Source: Cyanobacteria bacterium GSL.Bin1
GTDB taxonomy: Bacteria > Cyanobacteriota > Cyanobacteriia > Cyanobacteriales > Rubidibacteraceae
Direction: 5' to 3'
Length of the DNA stretch: 64,000 bases
Assembly: GCA_009909085.1 (NCBI GenBank)
Contig: JAAANX010000194.1
Span: 1-64,000 of the forward strand
Shown here: positions 1,528 to 52,029 of the stretch, piece after piece
Layout of the letters: each line of letters starts with the position of its first letter
Numbering within the stretch: position 1 is the first letter of the stretch
The notes under the pieces: generated by a model
What the model was told of the DNA's origin: nothing
Seen by the model: the letters and a program-made list of their open reading frames with translations, nothing else
The model's database searches: none
Made by a program: the position numbers and the translations under genes

Positions 1528-2775
1528 ATGAACGAGGAAATGTCGCCTCAAGAGTTACAAAGTGTAATCCGAAAAGTGGCAGAGGCAAAAACAAAGAACT
1601 TTGCTGAGTTAGTACAACTAGCAGGATTGGATCGCAAACAAGATTTTGCGCGATCAGATCTCAGTAGAGTCAATTTAAAAGGGATTGAACTTAGCGATGC
1701 TGATCTTAGAGATGCTTTCCTCAGTGGAGCCAACCTGAAAGATGCTTTTCTCAGGGGGGCCTTCCTAAATGGGGCTGACCTGAGCGATGCTAATCTCAGC
1801 GGTGCTTTCCTCAGAAGCGCTGATCTCAGTAGTGCTTTCCTCAGAGGGGCTGACTTGAGCCGTAGTATTCTTAGTGGTGCTGACCTCAGCGGTGCCAACC
1901 TCAGCCGTAGTATTCTCAGTGGTGCTTTTCTCAGCGGTGCCAATCTCAGTCGTAGCATCCTCAGCAATGCTAATCTCAGTCGTGCCGACCTCAACGGCTC
2001 CAACCTCAGGGATGCTAATCTCAGCCATGCCGACCTCAATTGTGTTGATCTTAGCCGTGCGTTCTTGAATCGTGCTTTTTTGAGTGGGGTTGATTTGAGC
2101 CGTGCTGACCTCAGTGGTAGCGACCTCAGCGGTACTATCCTGAGTGGAGCCAACCTCAGCGGTGCGTTTCTAAGCCGTGCTATCCTCCGGGGGGCCTTCT
2201 TAAGTAATACGAACTTCAGGGGGGCTTTCTTCACTTGTGCCGACCTCAGCCATGCCAATGCCAGTGACGCTGACCTCAGTGGCGCCTTCCTGAGGGATGC
2301 TAATCTCAAGTATACCAACCTAAGGAGTGCTGATCTCAGCCATGCCAACCTCGATGGTGCTGATCTCAGCCGTGCTAACCTGAGTAAGATTTTTCTAAGC
2401 GGTGCTAGTCTGAGGCGTGCAAATCTAGAGGGTGTTAACCTAAGGGAGGCGAATTTAGAGGGTGCTAATCTGAGGAAGGCTCATCTAGACCGTGCTAACC
2501 TCAGAGATGTCAACTTGAGGGAAGCGAACTTCAGCGGTGCGACTCTAAGCCGAATTAACCTGAGGGGCGCTGATTTAAGCGGTGCGATCCTCAGCCGTAC
2601 CAACTTGAAGGGCGCTGACTTGAGCGGTGCGATCCTCAAAGGTGCTAATGTAAAAAATACTTACTTTGCAGATAATTGCGGGATATCTCAACCCATGAGA
2701 AGAGATCTCGAATTGCGCGGTGCAATTTTTGAAGACGCTCTCAATCAACCAATATCCCTGATAAAAGGTAGTTGA
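1528..2775 (+). CDS. Pentapeptide-repeat protein
   Basis: A 415-residue protein. Residues 1-40 form a short leader (KTKNFAELVQLAGL) and residues about 45-375 are an almost unbroken run of pentapeptides of the A[D/N/F/I]L[S/R/K]x type, which fold as a right-handed quadrilateral beta helix. The number of AFLS and SILS units, with Phe or Ile at the centre instead of Asp or Asn, is unusually high. The C-terminal NTYFADN and LELRGAIFEDA segments are the usual cap of cyanobacterial family members. Start supported by GGAG 9 bp upstream. No signal peptide is visible, so cytoplasmic. The TGA stop (2773-2775) lies inside a transposon right end, so the last codons may have changed. Molecular function is unknown; the repeat arrays of this family are often binding scaffolds. 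Confidence 0.9.
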   Translation: MNEEMSPQELQSVIRKVAEAKTKNFAELVQLAGLDRKQDFARSDLSRVNLKGIELSDADLRDAFLSGANLKDAFLRGAFLNGADLSDANLSGAFLRSADLSSAFLRGADLSRSILSGADLSGANLSRSILSGAFLSGANLSRSILSNANLSRADLNGSNLRDANLSHADLNCVDLSRAFLNRAFLSGVDLSRADLSGSDLSGTILSGANLSGAFLSRAILRGAFLSNTNFRGAFFTCADLSHANASDADLSGAFLRDANLKYTNLRSADLSHANLDGADLSRANLSKIFLSGASLRRANLEGVNLREANLEGANLRKAHLDRANLRDVNLREANFSGATLSRINLRGADLSGAILSRTNLKGADLSGAILKGANVKNTYFADNCGISQPMRRDLELRGAIFEDALNQPISLIKGS

Positions 2776-2955
2776 CACTCCAACACCTGAAGGAGTTAGA
2801 TGCTTGGGCTGAGTCTAGCCTCCACCGATGAATCGATATTGGTCTTACAGTCTCATGTCCTACCTGACTACACCTTTTACTTTGGTCAAAGCAGGTGCTT
2901 CCGTGCTGCTTTCCTCTCGGGTTGCACCTCATTCCGTAGTTGAGGAAGGCGTAAT
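2772..2955 (-). mobile_element. Solo right end of a tnpB-type IS element
   Basis: Read on the minus strand this segment is clearly homologous to the right end of the element at 51548-51992: GTAAAAGGTGTAGTC, then GACATGAGACTGTAAGACC, a GGAGGC block, CTCAGCCCAAG, a short stem and the terminal GAGTGTCAA. The codons match too (both contain KRCS..., HETVRP). The terminal GTCAA ends at 2772. No left end with the AGTCGCCGTAAAACC signature is present nearby, so this is a truncated copy. The outer boundary near 2955 is approximate and merges with a dispersed repeat, AGGAAGGCGTAATCTTT (2943-2959). Confidence 0.7.
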
Positions 2956-10704: not shown

Positions 10705-10772
10705 ATTCAACCCTTAAGTTGAGTTGATTTCTAACCTGGGCTAGATATCGCATTATAGAAGTCGCCGTAAAA

Positions 10773-10793
10773 CCAAGCGTCTTTAGACCTTGG
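10773..10793 (+). other. Left-end hairpin of the tnpB element
   Basis: CCAAG plus GTCT pair with AGAC plus CTTGG around a TT loop with one bulged C. The equivalent hairpin at 51564-51584 has CCAACG/CGTTGG. The fifth pair has switched from G-C to C-G on both strands, so the structure and not the sequence is conserved. Such subterminal hairpins are recognised by TnpA in IS200/IS605 transposition. Confidence 0.7.
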
Positions 10794-10891
10794 ATATAAG
10801 GCGAGTTAGGCGAAAAGTTCAATGCTTTGAGCTTAACAAACTCAACTCATTTGTGCTAAATTAATTTAAGCTATTTTAGACAGCTTAAATT

Positions 10892-12160
10892 ATGATTGTC
10901 ATTGAGTACAAAGTCAAAGCCAAGACAACTCAATATACTGCCATTGATGAAGCAATTCGGACAACTCAGTTCATCCGAAACAAAGCGCTTCGTTACTGGG
11001 AAGACAATCATGGTGCGACCAAGTATGACCTGAATAAGCAGTGCAAACTTCTTGCTCAAGAGTTTGAATGGGCAAAAAAGCTCAACTCTCAAGCCAGACA
11101 GTCTGCTGCGGAGAGGGCTTGGTCAGCAATTAGTCGATTTTTTGACAATTGCAAAAAGAAAGTAGCTGGTAAAAAGGGATATCCTAAATACCAAAAAAAC
11201 AACCGTTCAGTTGAATATAAACTGACCGGTTGGAAACTTGACCCCAACACGAAAAAGCACATCACGTTTACTGATGGAAACGGTATTGGTCGAGTGAAAC
11301 TGATTGGGAGTCGGGATATCTATTTCTATTCCAAAGAACAGATTAGACGAGTGCGGTTAGTTAGACGAGCAGATGGGTATTACTGCCAGTTTTGCCTCAA
11401 CGTCGATATTAAAGAGGAGGTTGAACCGACTCAACAAGCCATTGGCTTAGATGTTGGCTTAACCGATTTCTATACAGACAGTAAAGGACACAAGCAGCCA
11501 AATCCTCGTTTCTTCCGCAAAGGAGAAGAGGAGTTAAAACGCTCCCAACGTCGTCTATCACGCAAACACAAAGGTTCATCTAACCGTAGAAAGGCAAGGC
11601 AAAGATTAGCCAAGAAACACCTGAGAATAAGTAGGCAGCGTCAAGAACACGCTCGGAGAGTAGCGCGTTGCGTAATCCTATCTAGCGATGTGGTCGCCTA
11701 TGAAGAGTTGCAAGTTAAAAACTTGGTCAAGAATCATAACCTTGCTCAATCTATTTCAGATGTTGGTTGGTATCAGTTCCGTGTCTGGTTGGAGTATTTT
11801 GCTCAGAAGTTTGGGAAGGTGACGGTGGCTGTTCCACCTCACTACACAAGCCAAGAATGTTCTAATTGTGGACGGATTGTCACGAAATCTCTATCTACAC
11901 GCACTCATACCTGTAAGTGTGGTTGCCAACTAGATAGAGACGAAAACGCTGCCATCAACATCTTAAGAAAAGGACTCCGTACTGTAGGGCATACAGGAAC
12001 GGTGGGGCTCGACTCCAAAAACGCTTGGGAAGATGACGCCTCTACTTTGGTAGGACACGTCCTGTCGAAGCAAGCATCGTCGCAGAACCAAGAATCCCAC
12101 GGCAAAGCGCGTAGCCTAGCCGTGGGAGTGTCAATTAGCCCAATCGCAGCAGCTGGCTAA
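10892..12160 (+). CDS. tnpB: TnpB RNA-guided nuclease (IS200/IS605 OrfB)
   Basis: A 422-residue TnpB, the Cas12-like RNA-guided endonuclease that helps retain IS200/IS605 elements. The RuvC-type site appears complete: Asp 187 in AIGLDVGL, Glu 271/272 in VVAYEELQVKNL and Asp 350 in LDRDENAAINI. The zinc ribbon is CSNCG (323-326) and CKCG (341-343). The N-terminal helix-turn-helix-like region and basic central part are of normal length. The last nine codons (after the right end at 12134) come from flanking chromosomal DNA because the frame has no stop before the element end. The omega-RNA would be read from the 3' end of this gene. It appears functional by sequence. Confidence 0.92.
   Translation: MIVIEYKVKAKTTQYTAIDEAIRTTQFIRNKALRYWEDNHGATKYDLNKQCKLLAQEFEWAKKLNSQARQSAAERAWSAISRFFDNCKKKVAGKKGYPKYQKNNRSVEYKLTGWKLDPNTKKHITFTDGNGIGRVKLIGSRDIYFYSKEQIRRVRLVRRADGYYCQFCLNVDIKEEVEPTQQAIGLDVGLTDFYTDSKGHKQPNPRFFRKGEEELKRSQRRLSRKHKGSSNRRKARQRLAKKHLRISRQRQEHARRVARCVILSSDVVAYEELQVKNLVKNHNLAQSISDVGWYQFRVWLEYFAQKFGKVTVAVPPHYTSQECSNCGRIVTKSLSTRTHTCKCGCQLDRDENAAINILRKGLRTVGHTGTVGLDSKNAWEDDASTLVGHVLSKQASSQNQESHGKARSLAVGVSISPIAAAG
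12030..12134 (+). ncRNA. Candidate omega-RNA of the 10.9-kb tnpB element
   Basis: The 3' end of tnpB together with the right end carries the features of an omega-RNA scaffold: CCAAGAAT, then an 8-bp perfect stem CCCACGGC (12096-12103) / GCCGTGGG (12119-12126) and the conserved end GAGTGTCAA. The bases after 12134 (TTAGCCCAATCGCAG) would act as the guide. The 5' boundary is a guess. The scaffold shares GGTAGGACA, CCAAG and GTCAA elements with the right ends at 2772 and 51992. Confidence 0.55.
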
Positions 12161-17497: not shown

Positions 17498-18682
17498 ATG
17501 CTGAATTTAACTTACAACTACAAAATCATTCCAACTAAAGAGCAAATAGACAAAATTGAACACAACTTAGCTGTTTGCAAATCAGTTTGGAATTATGCCT
17601 TAGCGGAAAGAAAGCTCTGGTCTAACAGCCGTAGTTGCCCAGTTAATGCGTGTTCGATCAAGTCTGAATCTATTGTTCCACCGTTTGAATATCCTACCTA
17701 CCATACTCAATCAGCTAACCTAACTCAGGCTAAAAAGACCAATGATTTTCTTAAATCTGGAAATGCAATAGCGATGCAGCAGACATTAAGAAAACTTGAC
17801 CGCGCTTTTAATGACATGAAAGCAAAAGGGTGTGGTTTCCCTCGCTTTAAGAAGCGAATGAAGTCTTTTAACTTGTTGGCTAAAAAATTTGAGGTTAACG
17901 GAAATAAGATTAAACTACCTTTGCTTAAAGAAGTCAGGTTTGTCAAATCACGGGAGATTCCAGAAGGATTCAAAATTAAGCAAGTTCAAATAGTCAAGAA
18001 AGCGTCTGGCTACTACGCTAACTTAGCTCTTGAACTTGAGGTTGATGTCCCAATACCTCAACCTCATGGTCATGCTATAGGTGTTGATGTTGGGATTCAA
18101 AGTATGCTAGCCACTTCTGATGGCTTAACGGTAAAGCGACCAGTGTTTCTTGATAACGTTCTGCGCAAGATTCAATTACTGCAAAGAAAATTACGTAACA
18201 AGAAACGTGGTTCTAATAAATACCTTAAGCTACAAAAAAGGATTGCTTTGCTGCATGAAAAAGTAGCTAACAAGCGTAAAGATTACCACTTCAAACTGGC
18301 TCATCAACTTTGTGTTGATGCAGGCCTGATATTTGTCGAGGACATCAACTTCACAGCTTGGAGTCGAGGAAGGTTCTGTAAGCAGTCCTTAGATATGGGT
18401 CTCGGTCAGTTCTTCACCATTCTGGAGTATGTCTGCTCTCAAAGCGATACGTACTTTGCCAAAGTGAATAAAGATTACACTTCTCAAGTGTGTCCCCACT
18501 GTGGAGTCAATACAGGGAAAAAGGATTTGAGCCAACGCCTTCATGTCTGTCCAGAGTGTGGATCTGAGCAAGATAGAGACGTAGCCGCTGCTGAAGTGGT
18601 AATGAAACGTGGATTAACTGCGGTCGGTGCGCCCGTGGTGAAACAGCCCAGTGATGACGGTCTGCCGGGGACTACGGTCTAG
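17498..18682 (+). CDS. tnpB: TnpB RNA-guided nuclease, second subfamily
   Basis: A 394-residue TnpB, only distantly similar to the one at 10892. The RuvC-type residues are intact: Asp 197 (AIGVDVGI), Glu 281 (FVEDINF) and Asp 361 (QDRDVAAAEV). The zinc ribbon is CPHCG (332-335) and CPECG (351-354). The N-terminal domain begins NLTYNYKIIPTKEQ, typical of TnpB. There is no frameshift or internal stop, so it could be active. The stop TAG lies before the predicted right-end hairpin, so the protein does not run into flanking DNA. Movement would still need a Y1 transposase in trans. Confidence 0.92.
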   Translation: MLNLTYNYKIIPTKEQIDKIEHNLAVCKSVWNYALAERKLWSNSRSCPVNACSIKSESIVPPFEYPTYHTQSANLTQAKKTNDFLKSGNAIAMQQTLRKLDRAFNDMKAKGCGFPRFKKRMKSFNLLAKKFEVNGNKIKLPLLKEVRFVKSREIPEGFKIKQVQIVKKASGYYANLALELEVDVPIPQPHGHAIGVDVGIQSMLATSDGLTVKRPVFLDNVLRKIQLLQRKLRNKKRGSNKYLKLQKRIALLHEKVANKRKDYHFKLAHQLCVDAGLIFVEDINFTAWSRGRFCKQSLDMGLGQFFTILEYVCSQSDTYFAKVNKDYTSQVCPHCGVNTGKKDLSQRLHVCPECGSEQDRDVAAAEVVMKRGLTAVGAPVVKQPSDDGLPGTTV

Positions 18683-51541: not shown

Positions 51542-51547
51542 ATTTAT

Positions 51548-51992
51548 AAAAGTCGCCGTAAAACCAACGTGCTTCAGCCGTTGGTGATAAGGCGGGTCAA
51601 CGGAGAGATTCGATATCTCGAAGTTGGCGAATCGAAAAAGTTTCTGGTACATTGAACGTAAGCTAAAGGAGACATCTTGGATTAGCCGTGATACGCGAAC
51701 CTATCCTCACTAAAGCTCCGGCTGTATAAAAGCTAGTATCACCAAGTTGGTATCGGAAACCGCTTGCCCCATTGCTCCACTGCTCAAGAAGGATCAAGGG
51801 CGGGAGAGAAAAATAAATTTACGATACCGTCGGGCGGACGGAAATCTAAACGCTTGGGGAGTTGTCCTGAAGAGTGCTTGCTGTAAAAGGTGTAGTCGGA
51901 CAAGACATGAGACTGTAAGACCACAGTCAACTGAGTTGACGGAGGCAAGATTCAGCCCAAGAATCCAACTTCTTCAAATTTTGGAGCGTCAA
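51548..51992 (+). mobile_element. tnpB-less IS200/IS605-type element (MITE) with omega-RNA-like right end
   Basis: A 445-bp element bounded by the same ends as the 10.8-kb tnpB element. After TTAT (51544-51547) the left end has AGTCGCCGTAAAACCAA and hairpin CCAACG/CGTTGG (51564-51584). The right end (about 51880-51992) carries the codons HETVRP and a scaffold with CCCAAGAATCCAAC, short stem and GAGCGTCAA. Internally a tnpB-like tail (ADGNLNAWG) is visible but there is no open tnpB. It is therefore a deleted derivative that could move in trans. Inserted six bases after the stop of the previous gene and 37 bases before that gene's terminator. Confidence 0.75.
51880..51992 (+). ncRNA. Candidate trans-acting omega-RNA of the tnpB-less element
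   Basis: The right-end scaffold is kept although tnpB is gone. Bases after the terminal GTCAA (AGCTTAGAACAAATATTCC) would be the guide. If transcribed and bound by the TnpB at 10892, it would recognise the empty site TTAT followed by that sequence. Transcription could come from the upstream gene's promoter. There is no direct evidence of transcription. Confidence 0.4.
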
Positions 51993-52029
51993 AGCTTAGA
52001 ACAAATATTCCTTATTGGATGATTCAATG

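Follow-up and report, generated by a model that had tools for sequence, protein, structure and literature searches.

A tnpB-less IS200/IS605 element in a cyanobacterium carries a conserved omega-RNA-like scaffold and is a candidate guide-RNA-only transposon

In the transposon IS608, the left cleavage site C_L (TTAC) goes with a left guide sequence G_L (AAAG), and the right cleavage site C_R (TCAA) with a right guide sequence G_R (GAAT) (PMC5934647). The TnpB nuclease takes a guide of ~16 nt from the DNA flanking the right end of its transposon and recognizes a target-adjacent motif identical to the insertion motif; it has been proposed to cut the donor joint, with repair then restoring the element, and it functions with reRNA expressed from a separate plasmid (PMC8612924). 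Short transposon-derived elements called PATEs are described as including degenerate versions that consist only of fused terminal sequences, and many of them are heterogeneous (PMC3119063).

We analyzed a 64,000-nt stretch of contig JAAANX010000194.1 from Cyanobacteria bacterium GSL.Bin1, hereafter the window. It contains a tnpB-less IS200/IS605 element of 445 bp (51548-51992), located directly 3' of a TTAT, with no protein gene inside, neither tnpA nor tnpB (Table 1). The left end reads TTAT followed by AGTCGCCGTAAAACCAACG...CGTTGG, and the right end consists of CCAAGAATCC, a hairpin and GGAGCGTCAA. Both ends are present as claimed in an earlier note on this DNA, and they match a tnpB-bearing element in the same window in the left end and in the type of right end. 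The compensating change that the note had seen in the left-end stem is also there, CCAACG/CGTTGG in the 445-bp element versus CCAAG/CTTGG in the tnpB-bearing one. Subterminal hairpins accompany C_L/G_L and C_R/G_R pairs, as expected of a non-autonomous IS200/IS605 element of the IS608 type, and all four cis signals are found, TTAT/AAAA on the left and GAAT/TCAA on the right. TTAT occupies the equivalent place in 35 family members, and TTAT or TTAC does so in 11 elements of the same genome. Across family members and own-genome elements, C_L and G_L change together (TTAT-AAAA in 42, TTAC-AAAG in 4, mixed pairs in 0); an element on contig C163 has tnpA and a similar left end, yet carries TTAC/AAAG, not TTAT/AAAA. 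The terminal TCAA is kept in 83 of the 90 family loci. Since the TTAT/AAAA and GAAT/TCAA signals are kept, the cis machinery through which a Y1 transposase could act in trans is intact.

Table 1. Features of the tnpB-less element and of related sequences in the window
Feature	Position	Strand	Remarks
Decayed second scaffold copy	2772..2923	-	R1, 77.3 bits; G_R GAAT changed to GCAT; unrelated sequence in place of the 5' part
tnpB-bearing element for comparison, left end and target as in the 445-bp element	10757..12134	+	TnpB ORF 10892-12160; PF01385 and PF07282
Second tnpB-type protein	18404-18592	+	PF07282, 65.8 bits; 394-aa open frame
TTAT target and left cleavage site (C_L); once the element is excised, the predicted target-adjacent motif for TnpB	51544..51547	+	
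Left guide sequence G_L, AAAA	51560..51563	+	Pairs with TTAT by the IS608 rule
Left-end hairpin CCAACG...CGTTGG	51564..51584	+	
Second left-end hairpin GAGATTCGATATCTC	51603..51619	+	Common to the tnpA-bearing C163 element and the copies of congener G003
Extended -10 promoter-like box TGGTACATT	51645..51653	+	Weak match here; many relatives nearer TGnTATAAT
Structured 5' leader (type II) of the predicted RNA	51660..51823	+	Alignment A4 and RNAalifold
169-nt omega-RNA-like scaffold with 32 base pairs in the model	51824..51992	+	180.1 bits with covariance model R1 in its own genome
Right guide sequence G_R, GAAT	51961..51964	+	CCAAGAAT in 79/90 family loci
Right-end hairpin, foot of the scaffold	51965..51986	+	Helix 6: 5/5 pairs with compensatory changes (alignment A1)
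Right end GTCAA (C_R, TCAA), final base of element and scaffold	51988..51992	+	
Predicted 16-nt guide from flanking DNA, AGCTTAGAACAAATAT	51993..52008	+	Predicted from TnpB biology (PMC8612924)

Comparison of the element with its own genome by BLASTN gave 22 places, and the best non-self match (E = 1.3e-91) indicates that the shared ends are not due to chance. Among the matches are three near-identical relatives that also lack tnpB (L002-L004) and lie in different surroundings on contigs C176, C46 and C34; over an internal 307 nt they share 84% identity with the window element. Many further left-end matches are found in the genome. In another genome (G042), seven near-identical copies likewise have differing flanks. 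The occupation of different sites by identical copies within one genome indicates that the elements move. Three congeners (G001, G003 and G004) lack the element at the orthologous locus, where the flanking genes run across the site, indicating that the window element is an insertion. TTAT stands on the left side only, with no target duplication, and is not recognizable at the empty sites of the congeners. The element is probably mobilized in trans by the Y1 TnpA of another element. The same genome also holds a tnpB-less element of a different type (L008, 1430-1900, contig C31), which combines a similar left end, into which an extra hairpin is inserted, with a -10-like TGCTACAAT, a short scaffold of the tnpB type (30 bits) and GGAGCGTCAA.

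We aligned the scaffolds of eleven tnpB-less copies to a 32-pair structure (alignment A1). In A1, 92.8% of the cells pair and double changes occur in 21 of the 32 pairs; the score for covariation is 0.487, compared with 0.206 +/- 0.022 after shuffling. When the set is enlarged to 44 distinct sequences, 98.5% of the cells pair, 21/32 pairs show double compensatory changes, and the covariation score is 0.377 (0.161 when shuffled). The internal helices 1, 3 and 5 are among those that covary. The scaffold thereby has the conserved secondary structure expected of a TnpB omega-RNA; covariation exceeds the shuffled level by a wide margin and the right end does not diverge freely, the outcome on which the earlier note had made its RNA reading depend. 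Folded as a single sequence, the DNA does no better than its shuffles (z = -0.61 for the scaffold, +0.18 with the leader). A CTTGC/GCAAG pseudoknot in the scaffold was considered and dropped, as L078, L084 and L071 break the pairing.

We trained a covariance model (R1) on tnpB-less copies only and searched 120 related genomes with it, finding a match in 91. Matches of at least 75 bits are mostly a long scaffold with GTAAGACC...TCAGCCCAAGAATCC, and those of 45-70 bits mostly a shorter scaffold that often overlaps the 3' end of a tnpB gene. That a model trained on tnpB-less copies alone recovers tnpB 3' ends shows that the scaffold and TnpB omega-RNA are homologous. An Rfam search of the element returned nothing at the gathering threshold and one unrelated sub-threshold match (E = 1.4); a HEARO or IscB omega-RNA and a group I intron (IStron) were rejected as identities, with no Rfam match.

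The putative promoter is conserved: among 37 distinct copies with a leader, 29 have an extended -10 box (TGnTAnnnT) immediately 5' of it, versus 46 of 1453 background windows (3%). The -10 hexamer of the window copy, TACATT, is weak. Some short members, such as L106 and L141 (the latter ~215 nt overall), have TATAAT directly at the 5' edge of the scaffold. The leader comes in two types, and RNAalifold finds compensated pairs in both, 9 of 18 in type II, to which the window element belongs, and 11 of 20 in type I. We rejected a coding remnant in the leader: L002 has a short open stretch, but related copies do not keep its frame, and the covariation in the leader is that of an RNA. A palindromic repeat, GTTCGCGTAGCGTCCCGCAGGGA, lies inside the leader of some copies (L134, L185), and its insertion there indicates that part of the leader tolerates insertions. 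The earlier note had described an element that lost its tnpB body; the interior is not a tnpB remnant and consists of the promoter, the structured leader and the RNA scaffold.

Over all sources, we collected 90 distinct high-scoring loci from many cyanobacterial genera. An adjoining tnpB is found at none of the 79 family loci with at least 1 kb of upstream sequence, a count to be read with the caveat that training R1 on tnpB-less copies biases which loci score high. The sole nearby tnpB, at L211, ends 640 nt upstream, with its own short scaffold in between. An exact-pattern scan of 84,980 species yielded 56 loci, all cyanobacterial, from genera including Microcystis, Anabaena, Nostoc, Microcoleus, Tychonema, Tolypothrix, Crocosphaera, Calothrix, Arthrospira and others. 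In a quick and noisy tree, the long scaffolds fall mostly apart from the tnpB-linked ones; tnpB-less copies with a short, tnpB-type scaffold exist as well (L008, L118, L147 and L153). By its long-scaffold signature and its added 5' leader, the window element is assigned to a separate tnpB-free RNA lineage, and its origin by simple deletion of tnpB from the neighboring element, as the earlier note had it, is not upheld. The predicted RNA neither derives from nor overlaps a cognate tnpB, and, as no tnpB adjoins the 79 loci, we class it as a trans-type relative of omega-RNA and not as a canonical cis omega-RNA. Three family members (L219, L220 and L221) come from viral contigs in IMG/VR, of which two are long, at 67 and 97 kb; this suggests spread through phages or prophages. 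A search of known phages gave no match, and one of cyanobacterial plasmids gave left- or right-end fragments only.

We also compared orthologous copies. In the pair L179/L191, the scaffold has 0 changes in 169 positions, the leader 11 in 179 and the flanks 62 in 791, and Microcystis pairs show 0-1 scaffold changes, with 2-4% change in the right flank in most pairs. The pair L101 (genome G116) and L103 (G084) has 13 changes in 165 scaffold positions versus 9 in 440 of the left flank, as if constraint on the scaffold had been relaxed; no PF07282 protein was found in G084, which carries the orthologous copy. In the endosymbionts of Epithemia diatoms (L197:1440-1608 and L208:7307-7474), the scaffold differs at 11 of 168 positions (93.5% kept), the leader at 40 of 172 and the thiC side at 34 of 350, and the left end and left flank diverge too. 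The Epithemia turgida endosymbiont (G121) still has the copy and no PF07282 protein, and the other endosymbiont gave a single weak PF07282 match, with no long open frame found. The TnpB model gives no explanation for scaffold conservation in this pair, where TnpB is absent or broken. Here, the element lies directly before a TPP-riboswitch-like sequence, recognized by eye, and thiC, and the copy may have been taken into the thiC leader.

Candidate TnpB partners are encoded elsewhere in the genome, which has 34 PF07282 matches; several TnpBs look intact, with the RuvC D-E-D residues, for example those on contig C208 and in the window. The frame of the window TnpB has no stop inside its element and crosses the RNA scaffold and 26 nt of flanking DNA. 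The earlier note had named this protein as the partner, but its own scaffold scores only 22.5 bits with R1, compared with 49-53 bits for the TnpB elements on C208, C128 and C188, and by this scaffold similarity the latter three are better candidates. Genomes with the family have a median of 31 TnpBs versus 12 in those without it (p = 0.006), a difference confounded by IS load.

We consider it likely that the window element is a non-autonomous IS200/IS605 transposon whose sole product is a guide RNA, with TnpA and TnpB both supplied in trans. That it is a guide-RNA-bearing non-autonomous element selected as an RNA, the part of the earlier note that stood, is well supported at the sequence level by the covariation, the conserved promoter and the always-tnpB-less family. 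The internal promoter would transcribe the leader (~165 nt), then the 169-nt scaffold, and continue into the flanking DNA, which would serve as the guide. Y1 TnpA from another element would excise and insert the element through TTAT/AAAA and GAAT/TCAA, and a host-encoded TnpB from another element would bind the RNA. This TnpB would cut the excised donor joint, in which TTAT is followed by the guide sequence, and repair from the sister chromosome would restore the element; the target at the element's own empty site would be TTAT-AGCTTAGAACAAATAT. We infer that the RNA is made, is taken up in trans by a TnpB and directs it to cut the empty site. For the family as a whole, we favor on balance the view that these are old, widespread cyanobacterial guide-only transposons, made of promoter, leader and scaffold, that live as hyperparasites on the TnpA of others for movement and on their TnpB for retention.

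The element might instead be a plain MITE or PATE, an IS605 deletion derivative kept by recognition of its ends by TnpA in trans, with a non-functional RNA. IS605-derived PATEs with near-terminal palindromes are known in Haloquadratum (PMC3119063), and the window element has every TnpA cis signal. TnpA, however, needs only the terminal hairpins and guide sequences, yet helices 1, 3 and 5 and both leader types covary, the promoter is conserved, and the scaffold of L179/L191 is unchanged while its flanks are not; we regard this reading as unlikely. A very unlikely and disfavored account is that elements like the tnpB-bearing one in the window lost their tnpB recently and that the covariation was inherited from tnpB-bearing ancestors. 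It would fit the left end common to the two elements and the tnpB-less copies with a short, tnpB-type scaffold, but the long subtype stands beside tnpB at none of the informative loci in many genera, has its own signature and leader, and is mostly separate from tnpB-linked scaffolds in the noisy tree.

Alternatively, the RNA could be a decoy or regulator that binds TnpB and dampens or titrates its activity, protecting element or host, with no guided cleavage for retention. Conservation of the scaffold next to an arbitrary guide would agree with this, and the extra 5' leader, which to our knowledge is not part of known omega-RNAs, could alter activity. The boundary between scaffold and guide and the TCAA end are kept in most loci, as expected if the guide is used; this is not decisive, because transposition needs the same letters. 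We judge a decoy or regulator quite unlikely.

If the guide-only reading is true, TnpB guide RNAs can be free-standing mobile genes, and a guide was separated from its nuclease in nature, as later in CRISPR arrays. It would also provide a natural test of whether TnpB acts on trans-supplied RNAs, account for the persistence of gene-less IS605 elements in the face of peel-and-paste excision, and add a conserved RNA family absent from Rfam. A search of openly accessible literature found no described tnpB-less element that carries an omega-RNA. Altae-Tran in 2021 reportedly described stand-alone IscB omega-RNA loci in Ktedonobacter, a precedent for OMEGA guide RNAs far from the nuclease gene, although with IscB and not TnpB. 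The window element shares with IS608 of Helicobacter pylori the logic of C_L/G_L and C_R/G_R pairs, with TTAC-AAAG there, TTAT-AAAA here and TCAA-GAAT in both (PMC5934647); unlike IS608, it has neither tnpA nor tnpB. Like the Haloquadratum PATEs, it is short, transposase-free, bounded by IS605-type ends and presumably moved in trans; the portion of the PATE description used here mentions neither an RNA scaffold nor a promoter, and by that description the present family is set apart (PMC3119063). The closest likeness in RNA is to the TnpB omega-RNA (reRNA) of IS200/IS605 elements such as ISDra2, with a right-end scaffold, a 3' end at the transposon end, a flanking guide and a target-adjacent motif identical with the site of insertion (PMC8612924), and with homology by covariance model. 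In contrast to that RNA, the one predicted here does not overlap tnpB, and the family has its own promoter and mostly an extra structured leader of ~120-165 nt.
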